The position numbers and the translations under genes are program-made. The notes under the pieces were generated by a model that saw only the letters and a program-made list of their open reading frames with translations, had not been told where the DNA came from and searched no databases. This document shows, in pieces, positions 11 through 40,380 of a stretch of 40,380 nucleotides of DNA. The stretch is taken from the IMG/VR virus record IMGVR_UViG_3300042864_002099, positions 1-40,380 of that record; one strand, written 5' to 3'. This DNA comes from a virus. The stretch's first letter is position 1, and each line of letters begins with the position of its first letter.

Positions 11-11
11 A

Positions 12-1358: not shown

Positions 1359-1364
1359 ACTATG

Positions 1365-2009: not shown

Positions 2010-2035
2010 GTTAATCTCCTTTATATTCATATAAA

Positions 2036-2063
2036 AGATTATCATAAATTATATTTTTGTCAA
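2036..2063 (-). promoter_or_regulatory. Promoter, TTGACA with extended -10
   Basis: TTGACA at 2063-2058 is followed after 16 bases by TAATCT (2041-2036) preceded by TGA. It lies in the gap before the 194-aa gene, overlapping the last bases of the radical SAM gene, and shares fixed spacing of ATGATA with the promoters at 1392 and 23887. Confidence 0.55.
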
Positions 2064-3344: not shown

Positions 3345-3347
3345 AAT

Positions 3348-6553: not shown

Positions 6554-7451
6554 ATTGCACCAAACTTTCTGGTAAATGTAATTTTAATAAAGTTTCAGCA
6601 TGTCGTCCAATTGCATGTTTGTTCATTACATGTACATTTTGATTTTTAACTAAAATTGCATTCCAAATCCAATGTTCTTCGGCTGATTTATTTGCTAAAA
6701 ATGTTAAACTATTTTTTTCTTTTGGTTCTAATAAATCATCTCGATCAACTGAAGTTCTTAAAACAGGATTTGGAAATGATTTAGCAAAACTTTCTAATTT
6801 ATTTCCGCCCATTATAAAATTAGCTATTCCAAAAATAAAATCATTTCTAAATAAATTTCCTGAGTAATTATATGAGTGTTGATAATATTCAAGATTATCA
6901 ATTATATGTTCAACTAATTGAAAAAAATCATTGTGTTCAGAACATTTATTAAAATAACAAACAGTCGCCCAATTTACAGGTATTGAAAATCCATCAATAT
7001 AAACATCCAATCCTTCTTTATTATCCAATAAATTCATTGCATTTGTATTAATTAAAAAATCTTTACTTGACCATATGTAATCCAACCAAGAACTTTGAAT
7101 AAGATAATCACTGTCAATTAATAATGTTTTTTTCCAAGGAGTTAATTGATAAACCTTTGATCTTGGATTATTACGCCAATTACCTGTAACATTTGAATAA
7201 GGGCCATCTCTAAAAACACGCAATTGATCTTTTAAATCAGCATAATCAAGAAAAACAATTTCTTGAAATAAATAAGAAATTAAATTATTATCATAACGAT
7301 TTTTAATATAATCCCAACTTCCTTGGTCTGTGATTAAAGCAACATTATTTTCTTTTAAATTAGATTTAAGCATGGCAGAACAAACCATTGCTTGTTGGGT
7401 ATAATCAATTAATCCATTATTATTTGCAAAAATACAAATACCATTAGACAT
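6546..7451 (-). CDS. Putative glycosyltransferase (GT8-like)
   Basis: A 301-residue protein with the opening GICIFANNNGLIDYTQQAM and a DxD motif in KKTLLIDSDYLI, near residue 114. The conserved pattern shared with 5711-6553 suggests a common ancestor. W-rich segments (WLDYIWSSKDFL, EHWIWNAILV) lie after the DxD. No membrane segment is visible, so it would act in the cytoplasm. It is coupled to the small gene upstream by an 8-base overlap. Substrate and acceptor are not determinable. Confidence 0.65.
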   Translation of the reverse strand: MSNGICIFANNNGLIDYTQQAMVCSAMLKSNLKENNVALITDQGSWDYIKNRYDNNLISYLFQEIVFLDYADLKDQLRVFRDGPYSNVTGNWRNNPRSKVYQLTPWKKTLLIDSDYLIQSSWLDYIWSSKDFLINTNAMNLLDNKEGLDVYIDGFSIPVNWATVCYFNKCSEHNDFFQLVEHIIDNLEYYQHSYNYSGNLFRNDFIFGIANFIMGGNKLESFAKSFPNPVLRTSVDRDDLLEPKEKNSLTFLANKSAEEHWIWNAILVKNQNVHVMNKHAIGRHAETLLKLHLPESLVQYV

Positions 7452-7788
7452 TAGCTGCCTGCTTTACATTTCTTGAATTTTTAATTCGCAATAATTCGGA
7501 GTAATATTCATTATTAGCTTGATGATGAATATCAAATGCAGTATCTAAAAATGTTTTTAAATCTAAAATTTCAATAGGTTTTTTTCTATCATCTAAAACA
7601 ATTGAATCATTATAACGTGATAACAAACAACTCCAATAACTTAAATTTTCTTGTGTTGCACGAAACAAGCCTTTTTCATAATTGAATAAAAGATTACTTT
7701 CATAATTTTCTCGTGCAATTTGTGTTTGTGTTTGAATTGTTGATTTCAACCGACCATGTTCTAACGCACGACTTAAACGTTCATCCAT
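7444..7788 (-). CDS. Conserved small protein of the virion cluster, 114 aa
   Basis: A charged, largely helical protein with the outline MDERLSRALEHGRL, NYEKGLFRAT, IVLDDRKKPIEILDLKTFLD and ANNEYYSELLRIKNSRNVK. I recall a similar architecture (N-terminal helix, GxF strand, DxxxxPIEI, C-terminal helical pair) from small proteins encoded beside tail genes in marine T4-like phages; this is memory and not a search result. A good Shine-Dalgarno (AAAGGAA) precedes the ATG. It may be an assembly or chaperone factor. Confidence 0.7.
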   Translation of the reverse strand: MDERLSRALEHGRLKSTIQTQTQIARENYESNLLFNYEKGLFRATQENLSYWSCLLSRYNDSIVLDDRKKPIEILDLKTFLDTAFDIHHQANNEYYSELLRIKNSRNVKQAANV

Positions 7789-7820
7789 ATTAAATTCCTT
7801 TCTTTATTTTATTTAGATTA

Positions 7821-8798
7821 TTAAATATCTAAACTATTAACATTAACAATTGATTCAGGTGGATCAACATCAACAGGACCAGTTGCATGTAAAATATCAA
7901 CTGATACTTTAGTACCAGGAGAAATTGAAGGAGAAACGGTAGGTGAATTTTCAGTCATTGTAACAGTAAATCTAATTGATGATCCATTGCCGCCTCTTAC
8001 TCCCAAATAACCTAAACGTTGTGCTTCAATTTTTAATTTATCATTTGAACCGCCTGTTTGTGGTCCACCTGGGAAAACATAAGTATAATTACTTAAATCA
8101 GTTGCATTAAAAACAATTTGTTGCGAAGCTGTTAATTGATAATAACCAATATTTTTTGTTTGAATTGGTAATCCATTAGTAATAGATTGATTATGTGAAA
8201 ATCTTAAAACACCAACACCGCCCAAAGCACCATGCCATTGTTTATCATTACCAACGCCATTTGGATGATAAAGCGCTACTCGTATTTCACCACCACTATT
8301 AAAAAACCAACGAGCATGATCTTCATCACGAAAATTAACATCAAACGAACAAGTTATAGTTGGAGTTGTTAAACTACCCCATCCCAAAGTTCTAGTATCT
8401 GAGTATTCATTAACCAATAATGTCATTGATAATCCATTATTAGTTTGAAATCTTGCCGGGTTTGCAGCTATGGCAAAAACAACTGTATCTAAATCATACT
8501 GATCTGAAGTTGGGGCAGAACTTTCATATGCTTCAATAATTTTACCAACCGCTAATAAATTTGCTGGTGGCATAGTTGTTGAACTGGTTCCTTGGTGATT
8601 TGCACAAACTAAACAAGCTTCACGCATTGAACTCCATTGAGCACTTGTAATTTTTTGTCCTACGTTAGCATTTGTTAATGTTATAATATTTTGACCATAA
8701 CCAAAAGTACCATTACCTTCACCATAAACAGATTTTACAATATCGGTAAAGCCATTATATTCGGCAGTTGTAATTTTAGAGCCAATTTGATAAACCAT
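7821..8798 (-). CDS. Virion structural protein (YGYGQ/ITxxQW type)
   Basis: A 325-residue protein whose first 90 residues carry the pattern ITTAEYNGFTDIVKSVYGEG, GTFGYGQN, GQKITSAQWSSMREACL and NHQGT, a layout that recurs in structural proteins of marine T4-like phages. The rest is beta-rich and ends in a proline-rich region (MTENSPTVSPSISPGTKV). It overlaps the upstream structural gene by one base (TAATG-type junction). Probable tail or fibre component; the exact position in the virion is unknown. Confidence 0.7.
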   Translation of the reverse strand: MVYQIGSKITTAEYNGFTDIVKSVYGEGNGTFGYGQNIITLTNANVGQKITSAQWSSMREACLVCANHQGTSSTTMPPANLLAVGKIIEAYESSAPTSDQYDLDTVVFAIAANPARFQTNNGLSMTLLVNEYSDTRTLGWGSLTTPTITCSFDVNFRDEDHARWFFNSGGEIRVALYHPNGVGNDKQWHGALGGVGVLRFSHNQSITNGLPIQTKNIGYYQLTASQQIVFNATDLSNYTYVFPGGPQTGGSNDKLKIEAQRLGYLGVRGGNGSSIRFTVTMTENSPTVSPSISPGTKVSVDILHATGPVDVDPPESIVNVNSLDI

Positions 8799-9859
8799 TA
8801 TTTTGCTCCTAATGCAACTTCAATTAAACCAATTTCTTTTGTTAATTTATCTTCTAATGCACGACCAATAACACAATAAACACTTAAATCTTTAAGATTG
8901 CCAGAAAATGCTTTTGCAACACCGGGGATATGAGAACTAACTAAACGTTGACCTTTTTTAACAATTCCTGTAGTTAATACAGGAACACGTCCAGTTAAAG
9001 CAACAAATGGGTGAGAAGAATTATTATATTCAATTTTGTCATTCATTCTAAAACCAGGATTAGCACTTATAACGCCAAAAACATTTTCACTCATCGAGTG
9101 TGTTGTTGGTTGAATTTCATTTTCGCCACCAATCTCAACAACCGTACCAGGAGGAATTGCGTGACCACTAAAATAACGTTCAGCTAAATCAGCATAATCA
9201 GAACTTGTACTTGTTCCACGAAATTTAAAACCTAAGCTTTCATTACAAGAATTTAATCCTTTATCAATACCATTTGAAAATCTTGCACCCCATTGATAAG
9301 TAACGCCTCGTAAAATAATTGTAGCTGGTACACTAGCAATTAAACCATCGGCCCAAACTGCAACAATAACACCATTAATAATAACAAAAAGCAAATTAAC
9401 ACCCATGTAAACAGCATCTATAAGTGTTGTAGAATTATTAGTAAATTGGCTTGGTAAACGCCAATTACTTCCATCCCAAACTAATAATTGTCCAGTTAAA
9501 TTATTAAACCATAAATCACCCACACTTGGGCCGGATGGTGCAGTATTAGCTACCGTTGTATTTGAACCAATATTTCTCCAATCTGGTACACTTGGATTAG
9601 CTGAAACGTTTACTTTTAATTTTAATTCTTGAGTATTAAACCAAGTTTGACCACGTAACGGTTTTAAAGCATTAATTGCTGTAGGATTAGGGCTTGCAAA
9701 ATTTTCACATAAATTAATTAATGTTTTAGCAACAGGTAAACCATAATCAGTTGCCCCACGTCCTAATAAAACAATTGGCGCTAATGAATTATCTATGACA
9801 AAATCATTAACTGTAAAATTTCTAGTAGTGCCATCAAATGTTGTAAAAATATAACTCAT
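8798..9859 (-). CDS. Virion structural protein with Peptidase_G2/IMC-like C-terminus
   Basis: A 353-residue protein. The N-terminal part carries DYGLPVAKTLINLCENFA and LRGQTWFNT, a pattern I associate with tail proteins of marine myoviruses, and PSVGDLWFN with LLVWDGSNW, a short beta repeat typical of fibres. From about residue 215, DYADLAERYF, IPPGTVVEIGG, NVFGVISANPGF, ALTGRVPVLTTG and VIGRALED follow the order of the Peptidase_G2 (intramolecular chaperone, autoproteolytic) domain. It would self-cleave after assembly if active; the catalytic residues were not confirmed. It heads the minus-strand operon that runs to 2064. Confidence 0.7.
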   Translation of the reverse strand: MSYIFTTFDGTTRNFTVNDFVIDNSLAPIVLLGRGATDYGLPVAKTLINLCENFASPNPTAINALKPLRGQTWFNTQELKLKVNVSANPSVPDWRNIGSNTTVANTAPSGPSVGDLWFNNLTGQLLVWDGSNWRLPSQFTNNSTTLIDAVYMGVNLLFVIINGVIVAVWADGLIASVPATIILRGVTYQWGARFSNGIDKGLNSCNESLGFKFRGTSTSSDYADLAERYFSGHAIPPGTVVEIGGENEIQPTTHSMSENVFGVISANPGFRMNDKIEYNNSSHPFVALTGRVPVLTTGIVKKGQRLVSSHIPGVAKAFSGNLKDLSVYCVIGRALEDKLTKEIGLIEVALGAK

Positions 9860-9911
9860 CTTAAATACCTAATTTGTTTTAAATATTTAGATAAAAACAA
9901 GGAAAAATTTA

Positions 9912-10916
9912 ATGTTAAGAATTGCAAAATATCCAGAAGCCGTTTGGTTTTACACACAAAAAACATTCCCAAGTGTTATTGTTATTCCAGAAAATAAAAA
10001 TTATCTTGTTTATAAAATAAAAACAACTTTATTAATTAAATTATTAGGGTCTCAATTTAATTTAGATATTAAAAAATTATTAATAAACAATGGGCGATTA
10101 AATAAAGAAGTTATTGAAGAAATAAACTATTATTCTAAATGTATTGAAAATAAAACAATGAGTAAAGAAGAGTTGTATAAATTCTTAAATACTGGATTGC
10201 AAGTGAATGATAATTCATTTCAAAGTTGTTTTGGAGAATTGCCACAATTAGAAAAAACAATGGATGATATAACAATTATTTGGCCGGAAAATTTTAGAGA
10301 ATCAAGTAAGAAAAAGTGTTTAACAATATTAGAAGAAATAAAATCTATTTTAGCTTCACATGGATTATTAGATGTATTTGATGGTAAAATCGTTTTTAGA
10401 AAAATGAAACAAGCTGGTCTTTATTACCCAACATTACATGAGATTCATTTAAATTCAAATATGACACACGTTGATAATCAAGGATTGCATACAATTTTAC
10501 ATGAATTAGGTCATAAATGGTATTACGAACAAATTTCTGAACAAACAATTAAAAAAATCAATGATAATTTTTATGAATTTTTAAAAGACGATAAAAATTT
10601 TTCTGTTGGGGATCGATTAATTTGTAATAGTAAAAGCAATCCTGATTTAAATGGATTAAAATGTGAAATTGTAGAATTAACTGATAAAAAAGTTAAATTA
10701 GTTTTTGAAAACGATCAAGAGTTTAATTTAGATAGAAAGTATATTGATGATCACGCATCAATATTTCAAAAAATAGATTTATTAGATTGGTTTCCTACAA
10801 AATATAGTAAGAAAAGTCCTCAAGAATGGCAAGCTGAATGTTTTTATTTTTACTTAACTAATCAACTAAACAAAAATTTGAAAAAATTTTGGGAACAAAT
10901 TTTTCAAAATAGTTGA
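9912..10916 (+). CDS. Zinc metalloprotease (HExxH, gluzincin-like)
   Basis: A 334-residue protein with HTILHELGHKW, giving zinc ligands H197 and H201 and catalytic E198. The likely third ligand is the glutamate in PQEWQAECF near residue 314, in the context PTKYSKKSPQEW that is usual for this group. Between these lies an inserted 50-residue beta segment (FSVGDRLICN to EFNLDRKYI) with the look of a small SH3/KOW-like barrel. No signal peptide, so it acts in the host cytoplasm or in virions. Start is set by AAGGA seven bases before ATG. Its stop codon overlaps the next promoter's -35 box. Confidence 0.85.
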   Translation: MLRIAKYPEAVWFYTQKTFPSVIVIPENKNYLVYKIKTTLLIKLLGSQFNLDIKKLLINNGRLNKEVIEEINYYSKCIENKTMSKEELYKFLNTGLQVNDNSFQSCFGELPQLEKTMDDITIIWPENFRESSKKKCLTILEEIKSILASHGLLDVFDGKIVFRKMKQAGLYYPTLHEIHLNSNMTHVDNQGLHTILHELGHKWYYEQISEQTIKKINDNFYEFLKDDKNFSVGDRLICNSKSNPDLNGLKCEIVELTDKKVKLVFENDQEFNLDRKYIDDHASIFQKIDLLDWFPTKYSKKSPQEWQAECFYFYLTNQLNKNLKKFWEQIFQNS

Positions 10917-10940
10917 CAAACATAAATTTTCTGGTAAAGT
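10913..10940 (+). promoter_or_regulatory. Promoter with CTGG-half operator
   Basis: TTGACA at 10913-10918 overlaps the stop codon of the metalloprotease gene; TAAAGT at 10935-10940 is the best -10 (16-base spacer), although TATAAA lies at 10941. The spacer contains AAATTTTCTGG, the mirror half of the CCAGAAAATTTT seen in the promoters at 29398 and 23419. It drives the small operon beginning at 10970. Confidence 0.55.
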
Positions 10941-10969
10941 TATAAAACTAACTAACAAGGAGATTTAAC

Positions 10970-11107
10970 ATGTACGAAATTACTTATATTGACAATGAAG
11001 ATCAAATTCGTGTTTTCAAAATTTGCGCTACTAAGTATGAAATTATGCTTAATAGTGGCGAACTTGATAGTCTTGATTCTGTAACTGTTAAATTTATCAA
11101 TGAATAA
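10970..11107 (+). CDS. Small protein, 45 aa
   Basis: An ORF of 45 codons starting MYEITYIDNEDQI and ending VTVKFINE. A strong ribosome site, AAGGAG, lies eight bases before the ATG, and a TTGACA promoter precedes it. The peptide is acidic with a predicted beta-helix mix and no membrane segment. It overlaps the next ORF by 8 bases, so three small genes are coupled. No similarity recognised. The ribosome site and the overlaps are the main reasons to call it. Confidence 0.7.
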   Translation: MYEITYIDNEDQIRVFKICATKYEIMLNSGELDSLDSVTVKFINE

Positions 11108-11219
11108 CGTTTACTTTTACATTTGGTTGTTTATTCTTACATGTCTCTTGGGTTTTATTGTATTCCCAAGAGACATTAATCATTTAGAATTAATTGTAAT
11201 TGAAGAACACTCGATATGA
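11100..11219 (+). CDS. Small single-membrane-span protein, 39 aa
   Basis: The 39-residue ORF has one clear hydrophobic span, VYFYIWLFILTCLLGFIVF, followed by a charged tail PRDINHLELIVIEEHSI. The N-terminus is very short, so the tail could face either side. It starts within the end of the 45-aa gene (8-base overlap) and ends in an ATGA overlap with 11216-11560, which strongly suggests a translated, coupled unit. Likely an inner-membrane peptide of the infected cell; whether it affects lysis or superinfection is not shown. Confidence 0.6.
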   Translation: MNNVYFYIWLFILTCLLGFIVFPRDINHLELIVIEEHSI

Positions 11220-11560
11220 CTTTTAATATTAAAGTTATTAATAACTCAAATAATATGAGATTTAAAGTTGTTAATAAATTAACCAACAAAGAATATCTTT
11301 TTAATCACCCTAGAGAAGTAATTTCTTTTATTGAGCGAGATAAAAATATTTTATTTCATGTTGAAACAAATGAACTTGGATATTCTCTTTGGCAAAATAA
11401 AAATGGTAATTTTATTCAATTACCATTTGTTTTAAATTCTCATTTTGGAATATTTGAAGGATTAAGAGAATTGCTTAAAATTGAAAATATTCTTCCTAAT
11501 CGTCATAATGCTAATAAAGATTATGATGAATTTGATGATTATATTATCTATTATTTTTAA
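11216..11560 (+). CDS. Hypothetical protein, 114 aa
   Basis: Starts by ATGA overlap with the membrane peptide gene. The sequence is a mixed alpha/beta protein (MRFKVVNKLTNKEYLF, PREVISFIERDKNILFHVE, GYSLWQNKNGNFIQL) with an acidic, aromatic tail (DYDEFDDYIIYYF). No domain recognised. It converges with the structural gene at 11557-12138, sharing 4 bases at the ends, without a visible terminator. Confidence 0.72.
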   Translation: MTFNIKVINNSNNMRFKVVNKLTNKEYLFNHPREVISFIERDKNILFHVETNELGYSLWQNKNGNFIQLPFVLNSHFGIFEGLRELLKIENILPNRHNANKDYDEFDDYIIYYF

Positions 11561-12138
11561 CAAGTTGCAATTCTAATTACATATTCAATTTCATAACTGC
11601 GATTTAAACTTTTTTGAATTGGTGAGAAAATTGCATGAGTTAATAATTTACCTGCGCCTGCAACACTAGAAAAAGATTTCAAACCAATTTCATCAAATAT
11701 AAAATCACCTTCTAAATCATTTGTTAAATCAAATGCATCTTGGCCTGATGGTTCACCATAATCCAAAGTACAAACTATAATTATATCAGTAAAGAGATTT
11801 CCTCTTGTATGTTTTACTTCCATAAAATTAGCAGTTGGATTTGAATTAGCAGAACTTTTTTGATCTACAATTTTAAAATATGTAGGATTATAAAGATTGG
11901 CATTTACCCCTTCAACATTTGGTGGATAATAAGAAATTGCACCAACTGAATCAATAATACTTGCGCCATTACCAAAATGCATTTCATAAATATGCCCTTC
12001 TGCATTTCCAGCAGCGGCCAAAGCCAATGCTTCACCAAAATTTTCATAATGAATTGCATTTGTTTTCTCAAGAATTATTTCAGAGGTATTTTTATCTCTA
12101 ATTGTAAATCTTCCTGTAATTTTATTTTCTAAATTCAT
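11557..12138 (-). CDS. Virion structural protein, 193 aa
   Basis: A 193-residue protein without membrane segments, with ENKITGRFTIRDKNT, an alanine-rich helix (GEALALAAAGNAEG), a glycine turn MHFGNGAS and beta-rich C-terminus ending YEIEYVIRIATC. I recall the EALALAAAG...HFGNG arrangement from tail-associated proteins of marine myoviruses. It follows the giant structural gene in the same direction and overlaps the small ORF 12135-12305 by ATGA. Probably a baseplate or tail-tip part. Confidence 0.65.
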   Translation of the reverse strand: MNLENKITGRFTIRDKNTSEIILEKTNAIHYENFGEALALAAAGNAEGHIYEMHFGNGASIIDSVGAISYYPPNVEGVNANLYNPTYFKIVDQKSSANSNPTANFMEVKHTRGNLFTDIIIVCTLDYGEPSGQDAFDLTNDLEGDFIFDEIGLKSFSSVAGAGKLLTHAIFSPIQKSLNRSYEIEYVIRIATC

Positions 12139-12305
12139 AAAATATCTGGTCCTAAATTTGGTTTCATACTTAAAAGGTTTTTACCTTTTACTCGTATGGT
12201 TAATGTATCTGTTATATTTAAAACACTTTTAACATCATAATTTTTTTCTGTTTTGATGTTTGATTTTTTTAACAACACTTGATCTTGAGGTTTCAAAGGT
12301 TCCAT
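12135..12305 (-). CDS. Small ORF overlapping the 3' end of the giant gene, 56 aa
   Basis: An ORF of 56 codons starts MEPLKPQDQVLLKKSNIK inside the last 71 bases of the giant gene, in the +1 frame, and ends ITDTLTIRVKGKNLLSMKPN...DIL with an ATGA overlap onto the 193-aa gene. It fills the only gap between these two genes. A weak GGGATG lies upstream. It contains an 8-bp hairpin (12171-12190, loop TTTT). It could be a genuine small structural or assembly protein, or the remnant of a longer coupled gene; the coding claim rests on position and the stop-start overlap. Confidence 0.5.
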   Translation of the reverse strand: MEPLKPQDQVLLKKSNIKTEKNYDVKSVLNITDTLTIRVKGKNLLSMKPNLGPDIL

Positions 12306-23528: not shown

Positions 23529-23837
23529 TTATGTGTATTTTAACAACATTTCTACCTGAAAGGCATTTGTTTGATTTGGGTGATCTTTTAACCAATCGTG
23601 AACGTTTTTATAATGTTTCCCATTTAAACAAAATCTTTTAATTCCGTCCTCATTAATATATGAGGGTCCAGTTAATCGATGCCATCTATCTCTTATTTCG
23701 CACCAAAGTTTTTCTCCTGTTAAAGTATCTTCATAAGCGGGAGTATTTTCACTATATGAAGATACTTCTCCCCAAGGGACTCTATAATAAAAATCGGTTG
23801 TAAATTTTTTACCATTTACGTAATAAATATATCTCAT
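23529..23837 (-). CDS. HRLTGP-family small protein, 102 aa
   Basis: Closest relative of 469-777: opening MRYIYYVNGKKFTTDFYY, VPWGEVSSYSENTPAYED, LWCEIRDRWHRLTGPSYI, and the same variant tail QTNAFQVEMLLKYT. These two minus-strand copies form a subfamily distinct from the plus-strand ones ending LWYLQN. Shine-Dalgarno AAGGAT lies nine bases before the ATG, and a TTGACA promoter with extended -10 lies at 23860-23887. Function unknown. Confidence 0.8.
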   Translation of the reverse strand: MRYIYYVNGKKFTTDFYYRVPWGEVSSYSENTPAYEDTLTGEKLWCEIRDRWHRLTGPSYINEDGIKRFCLNGKHYKNVHDWLKDHPNQTNAFQVEMLLKYT

Positions 23838-25542: not shown

Positions 25543-27423
25543 ATGAACAAAATAAAAGATGATATTATTGATGCGCTAACCCCTTATCAACAAGCAAGAG
25601 CTAGACCTGGAATGTGGTTTGGTAGCGAAACTCCAAATGAAGATAATTTAGTTGTTTTTAATGGTAATGAATTAGAATATAAAAATATTCGATACACGCC
25701 AGCAATTGCAACAATGTTTAGAGAAATTGTTGATAATTCATTAGATGAAATTAGCAAAGGTTTTGGAAATGTTTTAAAATTAAATTACAATCCAACTACT
25801 TTTACTTTTTCAGTATTAGATAATGGGCGCGGTATTCCTTTAGATAAAGTTCAACTTGTTTTCACAAGTATGTTTTCTGGTAGAAATTTTCGTGAACGTG
25901 GCGAACAAGCAGGACAAAATGGTGTTGGTGCAGCAGTTGCAGCTTTTACTTCTTTAGAATTTACGGTTGATGTTTGGCGTGATGGTAAACATTTAACTCA
26001 AAAATTTTCTGAATCAAAAGAAAAAGGTGGCGATTTTGGACCAGAAAATATTATAATCCATGAACAAATTGTAAAACCTTATAAAGGTAAAAATGTTGGA
26101 ACACAAGTAACATTAACGCCAAGCGGTCGGGTTTATAAACATTTATTAATGCCAGAAGAATACTTAAAAGCGCGTGCTTGGGAAATTGCTGCAAATAATC
26201 CAAACATAAAAGTTTATTGGAATGACGAATTATTAAAATCAGCTAAAACAACACAGGCTACATTATTTTCTAATAAAAAACCCATTGTTATTGAAATTAC
26301 TGAACCAGATTTTAACAGTGTTTTTTATTTGCAACCACATTTTGCTGAAAATTTAGATGAAGAAGTTGTTCATAGTTCTGTAAACAATATCCCAGCTTGG
26401 GATAAAGCGGGTAAACATATTAGTGCTTTTAGAAATACTTTTTATAATGGATTATTAGAAGCTTTAAAATTAGAAAGTAAGCGTCGTAAATTAAATCCAA
26501 ATCGCAGTGACATTGCAGCCGGATTATTAATTTATAATGTTACTAAAATGAAAGCCCCAACATTTGATAGTCAAAATAAAACAAGATTAACAAATGTTGA
26601 AGCTGAACGCGCAATTAAGAAAAATTTAGATGGTGAAGTTGAATATAAGAAAATTATAAAACAATATCCAGAATGGATTGATGATATTTACGCTCGTTGT
26701 TCTGAACGCACACAAAAATTAGACAATTCAGAAGCAGCAAAATTAGCTAAGAAAATGCGTAAAGCAAAAGTTGCTGGTTTATTAGATGCCACTGGAAGCA
26801 ATAGAACATTTTGTCGTTTGTTAATTGGTGAAGGTGATTCAGCAGTTGGAATGATTGCGCCTGCTCGTGATCCAAAAATTCATGGCGGTTTAGCTTTAAA
26901 AGGAAAGCCATTAAATGTGTTTGATAAAACCGCTCGTGAAGTTTTAGAAAATGATGAATTACGTGATATTTGTAATGCTATTGGATTAATTCCAGGCCAA
27001 AAAGCTGTATTAAGTGATTTAAGATATGGGCAAGTTTGGTTTGCAACCGACATGGATCATGATGGAAGTCATATTTGTGGTTTATTAACAAATTTCTTTT
27101 ATAAATGGTGGCCTGAATTATTTGATGATAAAAAGCCTTATTTTTATGCATTTATGACGCCTTTTATTATTGCTGAAAAAGGTAAACAAAAGTCGTATTG
27201 GTATGGCGATAATGTTGCTGAATTTAAGCCAGAAGAATATCGTGGATGGAATATTCGTCGTGCTAAAGGTTTGGGTTCTTTGGAAGAATCAGATTGGGTT
27301 ACAAGTTTAAAAAATCCTAAATTAATTCCAATTTCGGATGATGGTCGTTTAGGTGAATTAATGAGTTTAATTTTTAATAATGAACGTGCAGATGATCGAA
27401 AGGTTTGGTTAGCTCATGAGTAA
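25543..27423 (+). CDS. Type II DNA topoisomerase large subunit (T4 gp39-like, GyrB/ParE type)
   Basis: A 626-residue subunit with GHKL ATPase motifs REIVDNSLDEI (60-70), DNGRGIP (93-99) and GQNGVGAAVA (124-133), a transducer region, and a TOPRIM domain with EGDSA near 430 and DMDHDG near 503-508. It ends ADDRKVWLAHE, typical for this family. With a gp52-like cleavage subunit, not in this window, it would relax or supercoil phage DNA during replication. Shine-Dalgarno AGGAA precedes the ATG. The next gene starts within its last codons (8-base overlap). Confidence 0.93.
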   Translation: MNKIKDDIIDALTPYQQARARPGMWFGSETPNEDNLVVFNGNELEYKNIRYTPAIATMFREIVDNSLDEISKGFGNVLKLNYNPTTFTFSVLDNGRGIPLDKVQLVFTSMFSGRNFRERGEQAGQNGVGAAVAAFTSLEFTVDVWRDGKHLTQKFSESKEKGGDFGPENIIIHEQIVKPYKGKNVGTQVTLTPSGRVYKHLLMPEEYLKARAWEIAANNPNIKVYWNDELLKSAKTTQATLFSNKKPIVIEITEPDFNSVFYLQPHFAENLDEEVVHSSVNNIPAWDKAGKHISAFRNTFYNGLLEALKLESKRRKLNPNRSDIAAGLLIYNVTKMKAPTFDSQNKTRLTNVEAERAIKKNLDGEVEYKKIIKQYPEWIDDIYARCSERTQKLDNSEAAKLAKKMRKAKVAGLLDATGSNRTFCRLLIGEGDSAVGMIAPARDPKIHGGLALKGKPLNVFDKTAREVLENDELRDICNAIGLIPGQKAVLSDLRYGQVWFATDMDHDGSHICGLLTNFFYKWWPELFDDKKPYFYAFMTPFIIAEKGKQKSYWYGDNVAEFKPEEYRGWNIRRAKGLGSLEESDWVTSLKNPKLIPISDDGRLGELMSLIFNNERADDRKVWLAHE

Positions 27424-27811
27424 TTATGTTTATTATATAGATGGTAAAGAATATACAACGAATGATGCCATCTCATTATATGATAATTATGTTTATTATG
27501 TAGATGGTAAACGATTTACAACTAATAATTATGATGAAATTCCTTGGGATGATATTTCGTCACCAGATGAAAATACACCTGCATTTATAGATACTATGTT
27601 GTGTAGAAATGTTTGGTACTTAAAAGGAAAGGTTTATCATCGCTTAACTGGTAAAATATTTGATGGTCATGATGAATATTTTTATTTAAATGACAAATAT
27701 TATGAAAATGTTCATGATTGGCTTAAAGAACATCCAAATCCCGATTTATATTTTCATAAAATTGGTATTTTTACTGAAACCGATAAGGTTCTTTGGTATT
27801 TGAAAAATTAG
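27416..27811 (+). CDS. HRLTGP-family protein with duplicated N-terminal hairpin, 131 aa
   Basis: The N-terminal hairpin occurs twice: NYVYYIDGKEYTTND, then NYVYYVDGKRFTTNN, with the rest of the unit once (DDISSPDENTPAF, VYHRLTGKIFDG, NVHDWLKEHPNPDLYF) and the tail GIFTETDKVLWYLKN. The duplication is visible in the DNA, so it is recent. The core HRLTGP lacks the usual A (GK instead). It starts within the topoisomerase stop. Function unknown. Confidence 0.8.
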   Translation: MSNYVYYIDGKEYTTNDAISLYDNYVYYVDGKRFTTNNYDEIPWDDISSPDENTPAFIDTMLCRNVWYLKGKVYHRLTGKIFDGHDEYFYLNDKYYENVHDWLKEHPNPDLYFHKIGIFTETDKVLWYLKN

Positions 27812-27820
27812 GAGATACAT

Positions 27821-28153
27821 ATGTTTTATGTTTATTACGTTGATGGTAAAAAATTCACAACTGATACATTCGATAAAATACCTAAGAATAATATTTCTTC
27901 ACCAAATGAAAATATTCCAGCAATTGAGGATAGAAATACAAAATATAAAGAATGGTGTGATAAAGGAAATATTATACATCGATTAACTGGACCAGCAATT
28001 ATTCATGCTAATGGTTCAGAATGGTTTTATTTAAATAATATATTTTATGAAAATATTCGGGATTGGATTAATAATCATCCAAATCCAGATTTATACTTTG
28101 ATGCAATTGGCTTGACTGAAACAGATCGAGTGTTATGGTTTTTACAAAACTAA
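27821..28153 (+). CDS. HRLTGP-family protein, 110 aa
   Basis: Standard one-unit member: FYVYYVDGKKFTTDTF, ISSPNENIPAIED, EWCDKGNIIHRLTGPAII, NIRDWINNHPNPDLYFDAIG and tail LTETDRVLWFLQN. Shine-Dalgarno AGGAG lies seven bases before ATG. Ten bases after the previous stop, so the genes are in one operon. No catalytic motif; likely a small beta protein with a C-terminal helix. Function unknown. Confidence 0.82.
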   Translation: MFYVYYVDGKKFTTDTFDKIPKNNISSPNENIPAIEDRNTKYKEWCDKGNIIHRLTGPAIIHANGSEWFYLNNIFYENIRDWINNHPNPDLYFDAIGLTETDRVLWFLQN

Positions 28154-29487: not shown

Positions 29488-29787
29488 ATGACAACAAGCA
29501 CAGTAACATTAACAATGGAAGAAATTTTAAATTCACTTCCACCAAAACATAAAGTTATTTTTCACAATGATGATGAAACATCAGTTGATTATGTAATTAG
29601 TGTATTAAGTGCTATTTTTAATTTTACATACGAAGAAGGTGAAGAATTAGCTTATGAAATTGACCGGGAAGGTTATGGTGTTGCTGGGGTTTATGATGAA
29701 AAAATTGCCCAATTAAAATGTGAACAAGTTAAAGAAATGAATAAAAAATGGGGAAAAAATTTGAAAGTAACACATGAGCCTGAATAA
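29488..29787 (+). CDS. clpS: ClpS-like adaptor of ClpAP protease
   Basis: A 99-residue protein with the ClpS core: PPKHKVIFHNDDETSVDYV (NDD at 27-29), an FNFTYEEGEELAYEI helix, and GYGVAGVYDEKIAQLK. ClpS delivers N-degron proteins to ClpAP. Two pocket residues differ from the bacterial norm: the E. coli M40 position is V33 and the H66 position is D59 (EIDREG in place of VHxxG). These would affect recognition of the substrate's N-terminus. Shine-Dalgarno AAGGAG precedes the ATG. A ClpA partner is not encoded here, so it would act on the host protease. Confidence 0.88.
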   Translation: MTTSTVTLTMEEILNSLPPKHKVIFHNDDETSVDYVISVLSAIFNFTYEEGEELAYEIDREGYGVAGVYDEKIAQLKCEQVKEMNKKWGKNLKVTHEPE

Positions 29788-30116
29788 TGTTTATTTATTA
29801 TATTGATGGTGAAAAATTTATTTCAGATGATGTTCACATTCCTTGGTTAGAAATTTCATCACCCAATGAAAATACACCCGCTTATGAAGATTTAACAACT
29901 GGATATAAAGAATGGTGCGAAAAAGGATGGAAATTTCATCGATTAATAGGTCCAGCGCATATTCGATCAGATGGAAGTAAATTTTTCTTTTTAAATGGAA
30001 AAAAATATAAAAACGTAAAAGAGTGGATTAAAGATCATCCTAATCCTGATCTTTATTTCGATGCAATTGGTGTTCTTACTGAAACAGACAAAATTCTATG
30101 GTTTTTACAAAATTAA
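29787..30116 (+). CDS. HRLTGP-family protein, 109 aa
   Basis: Standard member: MFIYYIDGEKFISDDVHIPW, ISSPNENTPAYED, EWCEKGWKFHRLIGPAHI (LIGPA variant), NVKEWIKDHPNPDLYFDAIG, tail VLTETDKILWFLQN. Starts one base inside the clpS stop (TAATG), so it is translated with ClpS. Its tight coupling to ClpS is the only contextual hint of function. Confidence 0.82.
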   Translation: MFIYYIDGEKFISDDVHIPWLEISSPNENTPAYEDLTTGYKEWCEKGWKFHRLIGPAHIRSDGSKFFFLNGKKYKNVKEWIKDHPNPDLYFDAIGVLTETDKILWFLQN

Positions 30117-30127
30117 GGAAATAATAA

Positions 30128-30520
30128 ATGAACGAAACAATAAAAAATTATTTAAAATCTGGAATATTTAAAACTGAAAATACTTCACAACGAGATTTTA
30201 TTGTTAGAATTAAAAATGAAATTTATTATTGTGCCAATATGAGTTTATTTACTAAAGAAATTTTAGAAGGAACTTATGATGATTTGCCGTCAATGGAAAG
30301 ACCATATGCTGAATATAAAGTTTGGTATGAAAACGGTAAAAGGCATCGATTAACTGGACCCGCAACAATACATCGCGCAGGTTGCGATTATTGGATAGAA
30401 GGAAAATATTATGAAACCGTAAAAGAATGGATTAATAATCACCCAACCCCCGATTTGTATTTTCATAAAATTGGTATTTTTACAGAAACAGATAAAGTTC
30501 TTTGGTATTTGCAAAATTAA
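30128..30520 (+). CDS. Chimeric HRLTGP-family protein, 130 aa
   Basis: The N-terminal 65 residues (MNETIKNYLKSGIFKTENTS, FIVRIKNEIYYCANMSLF) do not match the usual YYIDGEKFTT opening, while the second half is standard (RHRLTGPATI, YWIEGKYYETVKEWINNHP, tail GIFTETDKVLWYLQN). The last 150 bases differ by only 4 from the end of the gene at 32514-32843, so the C-terminal half was copied or converted recently. Function unknown. Confidence 0.8.
   Translation: MNETIKNYLKSGIFKTENTSQRDFIVRIKNEIYYCANMSLFTKEILEGTYDDLPSMERPYAEYKVWYENGKRHRLTGPATIHRAGCDYWIEGKYYETVKEWINNHPTPDLYFHKIGIFTETDKVLWYLQN
30371..30520 (+). repeat. Paralogous tract A, 150 bp, 97% identical to 32694-32843
   Basis: Counted by eye, 146 of 150 bases match the tract at 32694-32843, extending at lower identity about 30 bases upstream. 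Elsewhere the paralogs are much more diverged, so this is a recent gene conversion or duplication. Confidence 0.85.
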
Positions 30521-31096: not shown

Positions 31097-32197
31097 ATGA
31101 GCAAAATTTTCAACACAACACAAATCGATTATACAAACGAACCTATGTTTTTTGGTTCTACTTTAAATTCTCAAAGATTTGATCGATTTAAATATCCAAA
31201 ATTTGAACAACTTAATGAACAAATGTTAAGTTTTTTTTGGCGTCCACAAGAAGTTAGTTTACAAAAAGATCGCAATGATTATATGCAATTAACTGAGGGA
31301 CAAAAACATATTTTTACCAGTAATTTAAAATATCAAACATTATTAGACAGTGTGCAAGGAAGAGCGCCAGCAATTGCTTTCCTACCAATTGTTAGTATTC
31401 CTGAATTAGAAGGCGCAATTAATACCTGGAATTTTTTTGAAGGTTCAATTCATTCAAAAAGTTATTCTTATATAATGCAAAATTTATATCCAAATCCAAC
31501 TGAAATCTTTGATTCAATTATTACCGATCAAGCAATTTTAGAAAGAGCTAAAAAAGTTACTGTTTATTATGATAATTTAATTGAAAAATTAAATCAACGC
31601 AATTCAAGCAACCCACCTTCATTATACGAATTAAAAAAACATTTATATTTGGCTTTGATAAATGTTAATATTTTAGAAGGTTTACGTTTTTATGCAAGTT
31701 TTGCTTGCACCTTTGCGTTTGGTGAAAATAAATTAATGGAAGGTTCAGCAAAAATTCTTTCATTAATTGCACGAGATGAGAACGTGCATTTTGCATTAAC
31801 TACTAATATTATTAATTACATGATTGAACGCGAAAATGATAAAGATTATCAACAAATTCGAGAAGAAACACATGATCAAGTAATTCAAATGTATTTGGAT
31901 ATTTTAGAACAAGAAAAAGCTTGGGCTAATTATTTGTTTAATCAAGGAACCATTATTGGCTTAAATGAGCGTTTACTTTGCGATTACTTAGAATATCTTG
32001 CAGTTCGTCGTGCAAAAAATATAGGATATACTTTACCAATAAATGCACAAACAACCAATCCGTTACCTTGGATGGACAATTGGCTTACTTCAAAAAATCT
32101 TCAAGTTGCGCCTCAAGAAAGCGAAATTGAAAATTATTTGATTGCAGCGGTTGTAAATGACATTACAGATGAAACATTTAAAGACTTTGTTTTGTAA
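31097..32197 (+). CDS. nrdB: Ribonucleotide reductase class I small subunit
   Basis: A 366-residue T4-like NrdB. It shares the T4 opening NEPMFFGS and the metal-site motifs: D84 in LLDSVQGR, E115 and H119 in WNFFEGSIHS, radical tyrosine Y123 in HSKSYSY, E194 in NILEGLRFY, and E228-x-x-H231 in ARDENVHF. The tyrosyl radical made at its iron centre is used by NrdA to reduce ribonucleotides for DNA synthesis. The spacing from E115 to H119 is one residue longer than the E-x-x-H of E. coli and T4. Shine-Dalgarno AGGAG lies eight bases before the ATG. NrdA is not in the window. The C-terminus lacks the usual tail motif strength (DFVL). Confidence 0.94.
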   Translation: MSKIFNTTQIDYTNEPMFFGSTLNSQRFDRFKYPKFEQLNEQMLSFFWRPQEVSLQKDRNDYMQLTEGQKHIFTSNLKYQTLLDSVQGRAPAIAFLPIVSIPELEGAINTWNFFEGSIHSKSYSYIMQNLYPNPTEIFDSIITDQAILERAKKVTVYYDNLIEKLNQRNSSNPPSLYELKKHLYLALINVNILEGLRFYASFACTFAFGENKLMEGSAKILSLIARDENVHFALTTNIINYMIERENDKDYQQIREETHDQVIQMYLDILEQEKAWANYLFNQGTIIGLNERLLCDYLEYLAVRRAKNIGYTLPINAQTTNPLPWMDNWLTSKNLQVAPQESEIENYLIAAVVNDITDETFKDFVL

Positions 32198-32517
32198 TGC
32201 GAATTTATATTATAGGTGATAGTCCTACTCGGTTAAAGATAGGAATAAGTGAGGATTGCCAAAAACGTTTGCGAGAATTGCAAACAGGCAATCCAAATTT
32301 ATTGACTTTATATTGGGCGAGTGATAATTTAACAAAAGAAAATGCTTATGTAATTGAACAACTATTTCATAAGAAAAATAATTTTAGAAGAATTAAAAAC
32401 GAATGGTTTGAATTAGATTTAGAATTAGCTAAAGCAGAATTATTATTGGCCGTTAATTCTTTAGGTATGGAAGAAAACATAAAGCATAAATTTAAGCAAG
32501 GATTTTTAAAATATTGA
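32197..32517 (+). CDS. GIY-YIG-type nuclease-like protein (T5orf172/Mug113 group)
   Basis: A 106-residue protein with a YIIG opening (MRIYIIGDSPT), KIGISEDCQKRLRELQTGNP, and a C-terminal NEWFEL; the invariant arginine and glutamate pattern of the T5orf172 group is present (KRLRELQ; AYVIEQLFH). Such small nucleases are often mobile or act in DNA processing. The usual GIY half appears as YIIGD, so the call is to the broader superfamily. It starts one base within the nrdB stop. Confidence 0.75.
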   Translation: MRIYIIGDSPTRLKIGISEDCQKRLRELQTGNPNLLTLYWASDNLTKENAYVIEQLFHKKNNFRRIKNEWFELDLELAKAELLLAVNSLGMEENIKHKFKQGFLKY

Positions 32518-32843
32518 TCGTTTATTACATTGATGGTGAAAAATTTACAACTGAGAATATAAATAATATTCCTCTTTATGAAATATCTTCACCAGATGAA
32601 AATACACCAGCGCTTGAATATACAATATCGGGTAATAAACTTTGGTGTGAAAAAGAAAAATTTTGGCATCGATTAACAGGACCAGCATCAATACATCGCA
32701 CAGGTTGCGATTATTGGATAGAAGGAAAATATTATGAAACCGTAAAAGAATGGATTAACAATCACCCAACCCCCGATTTGTATTTTCATAAAATTGGTAT
32801 TTTTACAGAAACAGATAAAGTTCTTTGGTACTTACAAAATTAA
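32514..32843 (+). CDS. HRLTGP-family protein, 109 aa
   Basis: Starts with TTG in a TTGA overlap with the preceding stop; AAGGA lies 13 bases upstream. Standard order: IVYYIDGEKFTTENIN, ISSPDENTPALEY, LWCEKEKFWHRLTGPASI, YWIEGKYYETVKEWINNHP, tail GIFTETDKVLWYLQN. Its second half is nearly identical in DNA to that of 30128-30520. Confidence 0.8.
   Translation: MIVYYIDGEKFTTENINNIPLYEISSPDENTPALEYTISGNKLWCEKEKFWHRLTGPASIHRTGCDYWIEGKYYETVKEWINNHPTPDLYFHKIGIFTETDKVLWYLQN
32694..32843 (+). repeat. Paralogous tract B, 150 bp, 97% identical to 30371-30520
   Basis: Partner of the tract at 30371-30520; 4 differences in 150 bases by eye. The upstream 150 bases of the two genes differ strongly. Confidence 0.85.
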
Positions 32844-32852
32844 GGAAAACAA

Positions 32853-33524
32853 ATGACATATATTTATTATATTGATGGTGAAAAATTTATAACAGAAAAT
32901 TATCATGAAATTAATCGTTGGATAATTTCTTCACCAGACGAAAATACACCTGCTTTTGAAAATTTAGAAACAGGTGAAAAATATTGGTGCGAAACAGGCG
33001 AAATTTATCATCGTTTAACTGGACCAGCAAAAATTTATTCAGATGCTTATTTTGAATTTTGGGTAAATAATAGATTTTATCCTGATGTTTATACTTGGCT
33101 TATGGATCATGATAATAAAAATGAAAACTTTCAAAACAAAATGATTGAAAATTATAAAAATAATAATATTATTATTAATAATATAAACTATCAATATATT
33201 TATTACATTGATGGTAAAAAATATACTACTGAAAATTATGATAATATTGATTTTTATGAAATTTCTTCTATCAATGAACAAACACCAGCTTATGAAAATG
33301 TAATTACAGGCAAAAAAATTTGGTGTGAAAAAAGATTTAAATTACATCGATTGATTGGTCCCGCCGAAATTCACGATAATGGGACAGAAAATTATTATTT
33401 AAATGGTAAATGTTATTATAGTAATATTAATTATTGGTTAACAGAACACCCAAATCCCGATTTGTACTTTGATGCAATTGGTTTGAATGAACCCGATAAA
33501 GGTCTTTGGTACTTACAAAATTAA
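32853..33524 (+). CDS. Two-unit HRLTGP-family protein, 223 aa
   Basis: Two family units in one frame. Unit 1 (residues 1-105): TYIYYIDGEKFITENYHE, ISSPDENTPAFE, YHRLTGPAKI. It lacks the usual tail; unit 2 (about 113-223): YIYYIDGKKYTTENYDN, LHRLIGPAEI, HPNPDLYFDAIG and tail NEPDKGLWYLQN. The link NYKNNNIIINNINYQ joins them. Only the C-terminal copy carries the LW tail, which suggests that the tail must be at the true C-terminus. Shine-Dalgarno AAGGA lies ahead. Confidence 0.82.
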   Translation: MTYIYYIDGEKFITENYHEINRWIISSPDENTPAFENLETGEKYWCETGEIYHRLTGPAKIYSDAYFEFWVNNRFYPDVYTWLMDHDNKNENFQNKMIENYKNNNIIINNINYQYIYYIDGKKYTTENYDNIDFYEISSINEQTPAYENVITGKKIWCEKRFKLHRLIGPAEIHDNGTENYYLNGKCYYSNINYWLTEHPNPDLYFDAIGLNEPDKGLWYLQN

Positions 33525-33544: not shown

Positions 33545-33799
33545 ATGCGAAATTTTTTATAAAATTTCTTTAACAAAGAAACAACTAAATTAGACAAATT
33601 AATTGATACACCCATTGAAATGTATACTACAAAACAAATGAATATTAATTTACCAGAAATTAAAGTTCCTGGTTATTATGGTAATGATTTAAAAGTAACA
33701 ATAAAACATAATGATAAATTAATTGATTGTGATATAAACCAATTTGGTGTATATTTTCAAGAAATTGATAATAAAAATTACATAGCAATATATAGTTAG
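33545..33799 (+). pseudogene. Small gene interrupted by TAA at codon 6
   Basis: After AGGAG, ATG at 33545 opens MRNFL, then TAA (33560-33562), then the same frame continues for 78 codons: NFFNKETTKLDKLIDTPIEM, VPGYYGNDLKVTIKHNDK, ending NYIAIYS. Codon usage and composition past the stop look coding. The TAA differs from AAA by one base. A downstream ATG (MYTTKQMNI...) could restart. Other genes end in TAA throughout, so a recoded stop is unlikely. Its last 24 bases are inside the 27-bp repeat that flanks SerRS. Confidence 0.6.
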
Positions 33800-33800
33800 G
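33774..33800 (+). repeat. 27-bp direct repeat, left copy flanking SerRS
   Basis: Bases 33774-33800 equal 35079-35105 exactly. The left copy covers the last codons and stop of the broken small gene; the right copy ends in the Shine-Dalgarno of glutaredoxin. The 1278 bases between carry only SerRS. Confidence 0.9.
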
Positions 33801-33823
33801 CAAACAGAAATGGATTTATAGAT

Positions 33824-35077
33824 ATGATAGATATTAATATAATTAAAAATAATCCTCAAATAATTGAAGAAAATCTTAAAAAAAGAAATTTAAATTTTCC
33901 TCTTAAAGATATGATTGATTTAGAGATTAAAAAACGTGAATTATTAACACAAATCAATTTAAAAAATGCTGAAAAAAATAAACTTTCATTATTAATGAAG
34001 GATAGCGAAATTCGCAACAAAATATTAGAAAAATATAATAAATTAAATAACGAATACTCTGAAATAAAACAGTTAGAATTAAAATATAAGAATGATTTTG
34101 AAAAATTATATTATGAACTACCCAATATTTTAGATGACAGTGTACCTATTGGTTTAGACGAAAATGATAATGTCATTATTTATGAACATCTAGTACAAAC
34201 TAATTTTACATTTGAACCTAAACCACATTATAAAATATCTATGATTGAAACATTATTTAATTTTGAAGATTCTACTAAAATTTCAGGAAATAGAACGGCT
34301 ATTTTAATTGGAGAATTAGCAAAATTAGAGCGTATATTGGGACAATATATGCTTGATACACAAGTTGAAAATGGTTTTACCGAAGTTAATACGCCTGTTA
34401 TTGTAAACGAACAGGCATTGTTTAATACGGGCCAATTACCAAAATTTAAAAATGATCTTTATAAAATAGAAAATTTACATTTAAATAAATATTTACTTCC
34501 TACATCAGAAGTAACATTAACCAATTTATTTGCAAATACTATTTTAGATAATGCAGCTAAAAAATTAGCTGCATTAACACAATGTTTTAGATCAGAAGCA
34601 GGCGCTGCTGGAAAAGATCAAAAAGGTATATTCCGACAACATCAGTTTGCAAAAGTTGAATTAGTTGCAGCAACAAAACCAGAAAATAGCGAGGCTATGC
34701 TCGAAGAAATTACAAACTCCGCTGAATCTATTTTAATAAATCTTAAATTACCTTATAGAAAAATGTTATTATGTTCTGGTGATATCGGGTTTTCTTCTAA
34801 AAAAACATATGATTTAGAAGTGTGGATACCATCTGAAAATAAATACCGTGAAATAAGCAGTTGTAGTAATTGTGGGGATTTTCAAGCAAGACGCATGAAT
34901 GCACGATTTAAACGAACAAAAAATTCAAAACCTGAATTTGTTCATACGTTAAATGGAAGTGGATTAGCAGTTGGGAGAACCTTAATTGCAATTTTAGAAA
35001 ATTATCAAACAGAAAATGGAAATATTAAAATTCCAGATGTATTAATACCTAGATATGGTAAAGAATATTTAATGTAA
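33824..35077 (+). CDS. serS: Seryl-tRNA synthetase
   Basis: A complete 417-residue class II synthetase, about bacterial length. N-terminal long helical hairpin (about 28-100) for tRNA-Ser binding; TSE at 227-229 for the serine site; motif 2 in FRSEAGAAG (255-263) and FRQHQFAKVE (270-279); ISSCSNC (344-350) and DFQARRM; motif 3 in NGSGLAVGRTL (377-387). All key residues look intact, so it is probably active and charges tRNA-Ser. LLCSGDIGFSSKKTYDLEVW and ISSCSNCGDFQARR resemble alphaproteobacterial SerRS from memory. Start is ATG at 33824 (MIDINIIKNNP); no strong Shine-Dalgarno. It is bracketed by 27-bp repeats. Confidence 0.95.
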   Translation: MIDINIIKNNPQIIEENLKKRNLNFPLKDMIDLEIKKRELLTQINLKNAEKNKLSLLMKDSEIRNKILEKYNKLNNEYSEIKQLELKYKNDFEKLYYELPNILDDSVPIGLDENDNVIIYEHLVQTNFTFEPKPHYKISMIETLFNFEDSTKISGNRTAILIGELAKLERILGQYMLDTQVENGFTEVNTPVIVNEQALFNTGQLPKFKNDLYKIENLHLNKYLLPTSEVTLTNLFANTILDNAAKKLAALTQCFRSEAGAAGKDQKGIFRQHQFAKVELVAATKPENSEAMLEEITNSAESILINLKLPYRKMLLCSGDIGFSSKKTYDLEVWIPSENKYREISSCSNCGDFQARRMNARFKRTKNSKPEFVHTLNGSGLAVGRTLIAILENYQTENGNIKIPDVLIPRYGKEYLM

Positions 35078-35078
35078 T

Positions 35079-35105
35079 AAAATTACATAGCAATATATAG
35101 TTAGG
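35079..35105 (+). repeat. 27-bp direct repeat, right copy flanking SerRS
   Basis: Exact copy of 33774-33800, beginning one base after the SerRS stop codon and ending within the ribosome site of the glutaredoxin gene, so the insertion preserved expression of the downstream gene. Confidence 0.9.
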
Positions 35106-35114
35106 AGAAGAAAA

Positions 35115-35372
35115 ATGAAAGTAAAAATGTATTCTAAACAAAATTGTGGATATTGTGTAAAAGCAAAAACATGGTTTAAATCAAAAAATATTTCTTATGA
35201 AGAGATTGATTTGAGTATTGAAGAAAATCGTAATGAATTTATTAAAAACATTATGCCTAATTATCCAAATGCAACAACAGTTCCACAAATTTTTGTAAAC
35301 GATGTTTATGTTGGTGGTTTTGATAATTTAATGGAAAAACAAGATTGGGTATTAAGTCAATTAAATGACTAA
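35115..35372 (+). CDS. Glutaredoxin
   Basis: An 85-residue protein with redox CGYC at 11-14 (KQNCGYCVKA) and the cis-proline motif TVPQIFVND followed by VGGFDNL. It would reduce disulfides, probably supplying electrons to ribonucleotide reductase, whose small subunit is 3 kb upstream. AGGAG-type ribosome site lies in the right 27-bp repeat. The next gene starts within its stop (8-base overlap). Confidence 0.92.
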   Translation: MKVKMYSKQNCGYCVKAKTWFKSKNISYEEIDLSIEENRNEFIKNIMPNYPNATTVPQIFVNDVYVGGFDNLMEKQDWVLSQLND

Positions 35373-39461: not shown

Positions 39462-39663
39462 CCTTACAATCATTGTAATAATAGGAGTGATGATTTTTTT
39501 ATCATCACTCCTATTTTCTCAAGCCAATATTTATCAAACACAAGTTGATAATTTGCTTAATTCTTATGGTTTTACTGAAATTAAATATGAAAATAAAAAG
39601 CCATTTACTTGCCCACAACAGTTAGAAAAAACAATACATAATTATTTTTTCTTTTTTGTATGA
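39454..39663 (+). CDS. Possible membrane-anchored small protein, truncated at the TnpB gene
   Basis: A 69-codon ORF with a hydrophobic N-terminal span (IIVIIGVMIFLSSLLF) and a polar rest (TQVDNLLNSYGFTEIKYENK), ending in FFFFV within the tnpB 3' end. The span is encoded by the terminator hairpin 39480-39515, so part of it could be an artefact; the polar region looks coding. The 8-base overlap with the preceding gene favours translation. The 3' end may have been overwritten when tnpB arrived. Confidence 0.42.
   Translation: MHNLTIIVIIGVMIFLSSLLFSQANIYQTQVDNLLNSYGFTEIKYENKKPFTCPQQLEKTIHNYFFFFV
39480..39515 (+). terminator. Intrinsic terminator, 15-bp stem
   Basis: A perfect inverted repeat (ATAGGAGTGATGAT and complement, plus one flanking A-T pair) around a six-T loop and followed by TTTT. 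It begins 19 bases after the 60-aa gene, as a terminator should. Confidence 0.7.
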
Positions 39664-40380
39664 GAAACTGCTAATTCCTCACCATTTAAATCAAATAAAC
39701 TATTAATTCCCCAAAAGAAACCAGTTCGATTTAATTTTAATGCCATAAAATCATAACTAATAGAAAACAAAGTTATACTATTATTTTTAGCCGCATTCAA
39801 ATCTGCATTATCGGTATGACCGCAATGACAACATTCAAATGTTTCTTGGCTCCTGTTTGATTTATGTACGTAACCACAAGAAAAACATCGTTGAGAACGA
39901 TAATAACTCTTGTTATGTTTTACTTGGACGCCAAGTAATTCACATTGATTTATTAATGCAGAATTTATATCTCGCCAAGACCAAGAATTTAAATATGATG
40001 ATAATCTTCGACTATGTTTTATATTCTTGTTACTTTCTACATTAATTAATTTAATTCCATTTAAATTTAATTGCTTTACAGACCAATTTATATAATTAAT
40101 CCTATGTGCAACTGCTTTTTTATAATTTTTACTCCCTCTTTTCTTAGTTGAAATCTTTTTACAAATTGTTTTTAAATTATGTCCGTGATTACAAGAGATA
40201 GTTTGTTGATTATCTGATAAACTTACTGCTGTATTCAATCCAATATCCGCACCTATTATTTTTGTTCCAGTATTTTTTTGTGCAATAATATTCCATCTCA
40301 AATCAATAGATTTTTCTTTTAACAAAATACTCGTCATTAATGATCCAATATTCAACATAATATTAGAATGTTTTGTATGT
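39642..40380 (-). CDS. tnpB: TnpB/OrfB RNA-guided nuclease, 5' end beyond the window
   Basis: The frame stays open to the window edge (reading HTKHSNIML upstream of the first ATG), so this is the C-terminal 245 residues of a protein usually near 370-400. RuvC motifs are present: D in IIGADIGLNTAV, E in LINVESNKNIKHSRR, D in NADLNAAKN. The OrfB zinc ribbon is complete: two CxxC pairs, CFSC and CCHC, in SQRCFSCG...ECCHCG. TnpB uses an omega RNA to cut DNA next to a target motif. No TnpA or end sequence was seen in the window. Confidence 0.88.
   Translation of the reverse strand, partial: HTKHSNIMLNIGSLMTSILLKEKSIDLRWNIIAQKNTGTKIIGADIGLNTAVSLSDNQQTISCNHGHNLKTICKKISTKKRGSKNYKKAVAHRINYINWSVKQLNLNGIKLINVESNKNIKHSRRLSSYLNSWSWRDINSALINQCELLGVQVKHNKSYYRSQRCFSCGYVHKSNRSQETFECCHCGHTDNADLNAAKNNSITLFSISYDFMALKLNRTGFFWGINSLFDLNGEELAVSHTKKKK

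Follow-up and report, generated by a model that had tools for sequence, protein, structure and literature searches.

Huge phages can encode up to 15 aminoacyl-tRNA synthetases per genome (Al-Shayeb et al. 2020, PMC7162821). Among the Brevundimonas jumbo phages, for example vB_BpoS-Kikimora (ON529857), a seryl-tRNA synthetase (SerRS) is annotated. In T4-like phages, promoter-less free-standing endonucleases are found between nrd genes, such as mobE between nrdA and nrdB (PMC2988022), and promoter/stem-loop (PeSL) elements have been linked to gene shuffling in T4-type phages (Arbiol et al. 2010, as cited in PMC4503421).

When analyzing a metagenomic phage contig, we noticed a gene for SerRS that lies between nrdB (ribonucleotide reductase small subunit) and grx (glutaredoxin) and is bounded by exact direct repeats of 27 bp. 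The gene resembles the huge-phage synthetases (PMC7162821) in being full-size, bacterial-type, carried by a jumbo phage, and related to yet distinct from host versions. Unlike them, it sits between exact repeats at a defined place. It shares a broad alphaproteobacterial-type clade with the SerRS of Kikimora, but the two proteins are only 40% identical, and the Kikimora gene has another neighborhood and no flanking repeat of at least 12 bp. Like mobE, it is a promoter-less single gene between conserved nrd-pathway genes, and a GIY-YIG-type gene follows nrdB here, but SerRS is not an endonuclease. The repeats recall the PeSL cassettes, as far as these are characterized in the source cited, in being short repeated sequences located between genes, where they could help genes to be shuffled; compared with that description, the 27-mer has neither a promoter nor a stem-loop and occurs only twice. 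What is distinctive here is the presence of exact repeats at both edges of a synthetase gene, within a surrounding gene order that is known from relatives.

Results

The stretch of DNA analyzed, hereafter the window, comprises 40,380 nt (positions 1 to 40,380 of IMGVR_UViG_3300042864_002099). It is probably a fragment of an AT-rich jumbo phage of a lineage that includes Agrobacterium phage Atu_ph07. Its topoisomerase shares 46-49% identity with those of Sinorhizobium phage Phosso, Agrobacterium phage Atu_ph07, and several contigs of 415-561 kb. Relatives were recovered by alignment scans; single-protein scans returned no relative for SerRS or the topoisomerase and only distant ones for nrdB. 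Kin contigs from three samples (IMG 3300042311, 3300042330, and 3300042864) were found by a scan with a paralogue family of the window. One of them, G444, comes from another sample and is 100% identical to window positions 1-12215, which places the same phage in that assembly; it stops short of the SerRS locus. The sample of G444 also yielded contig G443, which carries tRNA-Ser(GGA) and other tRNAs and is likely part of the same genome as the window phage. An Rfam search of the window gave no match.

The paralogue family used in the scan (YYIDGKKFTT...HRLTGPA...HPNPDLYF) is hugely expanded (one kin contig of 146 kb has about 40 DNA matches) and had no Pfam match where tested. Its members are found in the window at 469-789, 23529-23837, 27416-28153, 29787-30520, and 32514-33524 and in kin sequence at L373-L396. 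A TnpB-like ORF lies at the window end (39642-40358), and on a kin contig an IS607-like pair of resolvase and TnpB adjoins a truncated paralogue-tail gene (L412:2512-4300).

All genes of the locus are on the plus strand. The serS gene (33824-35077; 417 amino acids [aa]) is the sole complete ORF between the two repeat copies, in agreement with the preliminary description, which had placed one full SerRS gene there and judged it intact. Pfam recognizes the class II core (PF00587, 5.5e-38) and the SerRS N-terminal domain (PF02403, 4.5e-10), and the protein also matches PDB 2dq3 (1.2e-112). The motifs PTSEV, FRSEAG, HQFAKVE, EISSCSN, and NGSGLAVGR are all there, and the protein keeps 76 of the 81 alignment columns that are at least 97% conserved in 60 bacterial sequences. 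The AlphaFold2 model (mean pLDDT, 83.5) superimposes on Escherichia coli SerRS (6r1m) with a TM score of 0.93 and has the long helical tRNA-binding arm (helices 27-57 and 61-98). SerRS is thus an intact, bacterial-type enzyme. Its sequence and model make serine tRNA charging during infection its most likely role; G443, from a sample that contains this phage, has a tRNA-Ser(GGA).

The 27 bases at 33774-33800 recur letter for letter at 35079-35105, as had been reported, and the identity can be extended on neither side. Across 30 third-order Markov shuffles of the whole window, the maximum repeat length ranged from 16 to 20 nt, and random 300-bp flanks had no match longer than 12 nt. The remaining exact repeats of at least 19 nt in the window all fall within the one expanded paralogue family, and no other site in the window comes closer to the 27-mer than 8 mismatches, a level also reached in shuffled sequence. 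Its 22-nt core was not found in any other IMG/VR contig. Since its 20-nt core, with up to 3 mismatches allowed, was also not found in eight same-phage or kin contigs (540 kb in total), we regard the 27-mer as non-recurring. It contains no promoter-like site, no TTGACA, and no stable stem (fold z, -0.73). An inverted repeat of 7 bp (ATGTAAT-AAA-ATTACAT) at 35072-35088 spans the boundary between the SerRS end and the right copy.

The two copies have different relations to the genes around them, and the earlier assignment of the left copy to the 3' end of a small gene and of the right copy to the ribosome site of grx was borne out. The small gene (33545-33799; 85 codons, including the stop) has its last 8 codons and its stop codon inside the left copy. 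The right copy starts 2 nt past the SerRS stop codon, and its final AGG opens the grx ribosome site AGGAG (35103-35107); grx itself follows at 35115-35372 (85 aa; PF00462, E value of 4.3e-17). The ATG of the small gene at 33545 is well placed behind a good ribosome site. However, codon 6 is an in-frame TAA (33560-33562), after which the frame is open for 78 codons, and no homologue was found among phage proteins, the ORFs of kin contigs, or the 88-aa ORF between nrdB and grx of relative G004. The small gene therefore cannot be counted as intact and may be broken or read through. Between the left copy and SerRS, a minicistron of three codons (ATG GAT TTA TAG; 33810-33821) begins 9 nt past the AGG of the left copy and ends 2 nt before the SerRS start.

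Upstream of the small gene, nrdB (31097-32197; 366 aa; PF00268, E value of 2.8e-52) is followed by a GIY-YIG-type nuclease-domain gene (32197-32517; 106 aa; MUG113, 2.8e-11; T5orf172, 4.4e-11), whose start overlaps the nrdB stop codon, and by two ORFs of the paralogue family (32514-33524; 109 and 223 aa), identified by the direct repeats D1 to D6 and by alignments. The GIY-YIG-type gene belongs to the enlarged nrdB-grx interval, outside the repeat-bounded block; as it ends 1.3 kb upstream of SerRS, its co-mobilization with SerRS would be conjectural.

We compared the nrdB-grx interval with that of relatives, as the preliminary description had proposed, and found empty sites at the level of gene order. 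Ten related jumbo-phage contigs have grx 9-898 bp downstream of nrdB and on the same strand, in some cases with one to three small ORFs between the two genes, and none of the 10 has SerRS in the interval. The spacing in the window is 2.9 kb. As nrdB and grx are near neighbors without SerRS in these contigs, SerRS is an addition at this place. The GIY-YIG-type gene and the two paralogue-family ORFs in the same interval point to several additions, so SerRS need not have arrived alone. So far, only this phage has SerRS between nrdB and grx. Five of the 10 relatives (G001, G004, G005, G038, and G040) have a SerRS gene at another place on the contig, separated from nrdB by at least 76 kb, and 6 of the 19 contigs of at least 250 kb recovered by topoisomerase carry one. 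The premise that phage-encoded aminoacyl-tRNA synthetases are rare is therefore not upheld for SerRS in this group, in which the gene seems to have been gained and lost. Apart from one 12-mer, the SerRS genes checked on other contigs lacked flanking repeats of at least 12 bp.

Other translation genes were seen in these contigs. One relative of 561 kb has, after nrdB and grx, a small ORF and then a class I tRNA synthetase of 928 aa whose sequence identifies it as IleRS (L081:4459-8838). Within 10 kb of SerRS, two SerRS-bearing jumbo contigs (L040:3427-18820 and L043:2902-17749) carry a tRNA-Ser(TGA) along with a tRNA whose anticodon, CTA, could make it an amber suppressor.

Base composition gives no sign of a foreign gene, as the GC content (0.262) and GC3 (0.127) of serS match those of its neighbors and of the phage. 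We searched 385 alphaproteobacterial genomes for a possible host origin; a match was present in 377, with a best identity of about 50%. In two trees, SerRS clusters with alphaproteobacterial and jumbo-phage SerRS, on a long branch and with no close host, so that the alphaproteobacterial affinity that had been anticipated is recovered but a particular host relative is not. In a larger tree its placement is unsettled, and no sequence in the largest tree has a longer branch. The end branch measures 1.8-2.3 changes per site. A clade with five other jumbo-phage SerRS was not rejected by the AU test (p = 0.265), which is no evidence for such a clade either. Taken together, the phage-like GC and GC3, the best identity of about 50%, and the isolated long branch argue against a recent capture from the sampled host group, and the idea that a gain from the host is visible here is accordingly not sustained. 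From its sequence, SerRS appears to be proteobacterial-type, probably alphaproteobacterial-type, and long diverged, probably in phages. The donor may have been an unsampled AT-rich host.

One match was set aside. The SerRS listed for Acinetobacter phage MD-2021a (L002, CAKLQH020000002.1) apparently lies on a bacterial contig, with rplU, rpmA, and rpoD near serS, and further unannotated SerRS matches in the phage collection may likewise be bacterial.

Discussion

On balance we favor, with somewhat better than even confidence, the interpretation that an old phage-type SerRS was secondarily placed at the junction of the small gene and grx and that 27 bp were duplicated in the event. The diverged gene would have landed as a single, promoter-poor gene within the nrdB-grx interval. 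The insertion would have doubled the 27 bp in such a way that the left copy retained the stop codon of the small gene and the right copy retained the ribosome site of grx. The AGG of the left copy may supply SerRS translation by way of the AGG-ATGGATTTATAG three-codon minicistron, which ends 2 nt before the SerRS start, and the enzyme would serve in serine tRNA charging. When one repeat and the SerRS block are removed on paper, the stop codon of the small gene joins the grx ribosome site. The restored junction that had been postulated is thus reproduced, but the small gene is interrupted, which makes the restoration a weaker argument. An empty site with a single 27-bp copy, which the preliminary description had suggested looking for, was not found in IMG/VR or in the kin contigs. 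For this reason, we infer rather than see directly that the duplication dates from the insertion, that both were one event, and in which order things happened. The insert holds one full gene only, with no transposase, and no terminal inverted repeats join its two ends. A target duplication of 27 bp is long for known transposons.

Tandem paralogues of this phage have exact common segments of 29-34 bp, and the best-supported rival therefore invokes a lost tandem paralogue. In this account, which we consider serious though unlikely, two small genes with identical tails stood before grx, and SerRS replaced the body of the second; the right 27 bp would be the tail of the lost copy, and ATGGATTTA before SerRS would be its start. 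Pairs with such segments are known from the phage (34 bp in L377, 29 bp in L389, and 30 bp in L420), the right copy lies in the SerRS reading frame, where it would encode a small-gene tail, and immediately left of SerRS there is an ATG with an AGG. However, the 334 kb of kin sequence yielded no small-gene paralogue, and the identity begins exactly 2 nt past the SerRS stop codon and gives way to dissimilar sequence at both ends. A less probable alternative is that SerRS was already present when the 27 bp were copied over 1.3 kb, by a template switch or gene conversion that had nothing to do with the insertion. The inverted repeat across the right boundary and the repeat-rich nature of the phage are compatible with this, but it takes a coincidence for the copied piece to bound the newcomer gene with a stop codon and a partial ribosome site.

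The original reading, a fresh capture of SerRS from a current alphaproteobacterial host, now seems very improbable. It can draw on the grouping with alphaproteobacterial SerRS in two trees, but neither the best identity of about 50% among the 377 genomes with a match, nor the end branch of 1.8-2.3 changes per site, nor the phage-like GC3 fits a recent host gene, and the clade with other jumbo-phage SerRS is unrejected, if not positively indicated. We give just as little credence to the 27-mer as a conserved regulatory element, a promoter or processing site, before SerRS and grx. It does precede two genes, and the phage does repeat TTGACA promoters and terminators; against this, its core is not repeated anywhere else in the 540 kb of kin sequence, even when 3 mismatches are allowed, TTGACA and a stable stem are missing from the 27-mer, and its left copy is coding. 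Least probable of all is an assembly artifact in which SerRS was joined to the junction through the common 27-mer. The contig is metagenomic, but 27 bp is shorter than a usual read, the composition and strand of SerRS suit the operon, and a contig from another sample is 100% identical over window positions 1-12215, though it ends short of this locus.

Exact repeats around a single gene occur once more in the phage and its same-population contigs, where a search of 334 kb for a comparable layout returned only one other case, exact 40-bp repeats around a 110-aa ORF (L374:13378-13815 and L389:3643-4080). The sequence is identical in the assemblies of two samples, and the ORF lies downstream of an HNH endonuclease gene. 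Each 40-bp repeat ends in a ribosome site and a start codon, and sequence similarity continues for a few codons within both genes. Similar repeats elsewhere in the phage were mostly TTGACA promoters, terminators, or segments shared by paralogues, and the 40-bp case alone was left over. It is conceivable, if rather doubtful, that this lineage gains single genes by duplicating a gene junction, that is, the upstream end or leader together with the downstream ribosome site, so that both neighbors stay usable. If so, SerRS (27 bp) and the HNH-adjacent 110-aa ORF (40 bp) would be two products of one junction-duplicating process. Two cases do not make a mechanism, though the idea is testable.

The finding is ordinary in kind and is useful as a testable placement event. 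It also carries a caution: a flanking repeat is no proof of recent host capture, as this SerRS looks old although its placement may be young. In large phages, the gain or relocation of translation genes can mostly not be observed, since the donors and the empty sites have disappeared. Here, the place of insertion is bracketed by two conserved genes and an exact repeat, so that the event can be checked by reads or in relatives.
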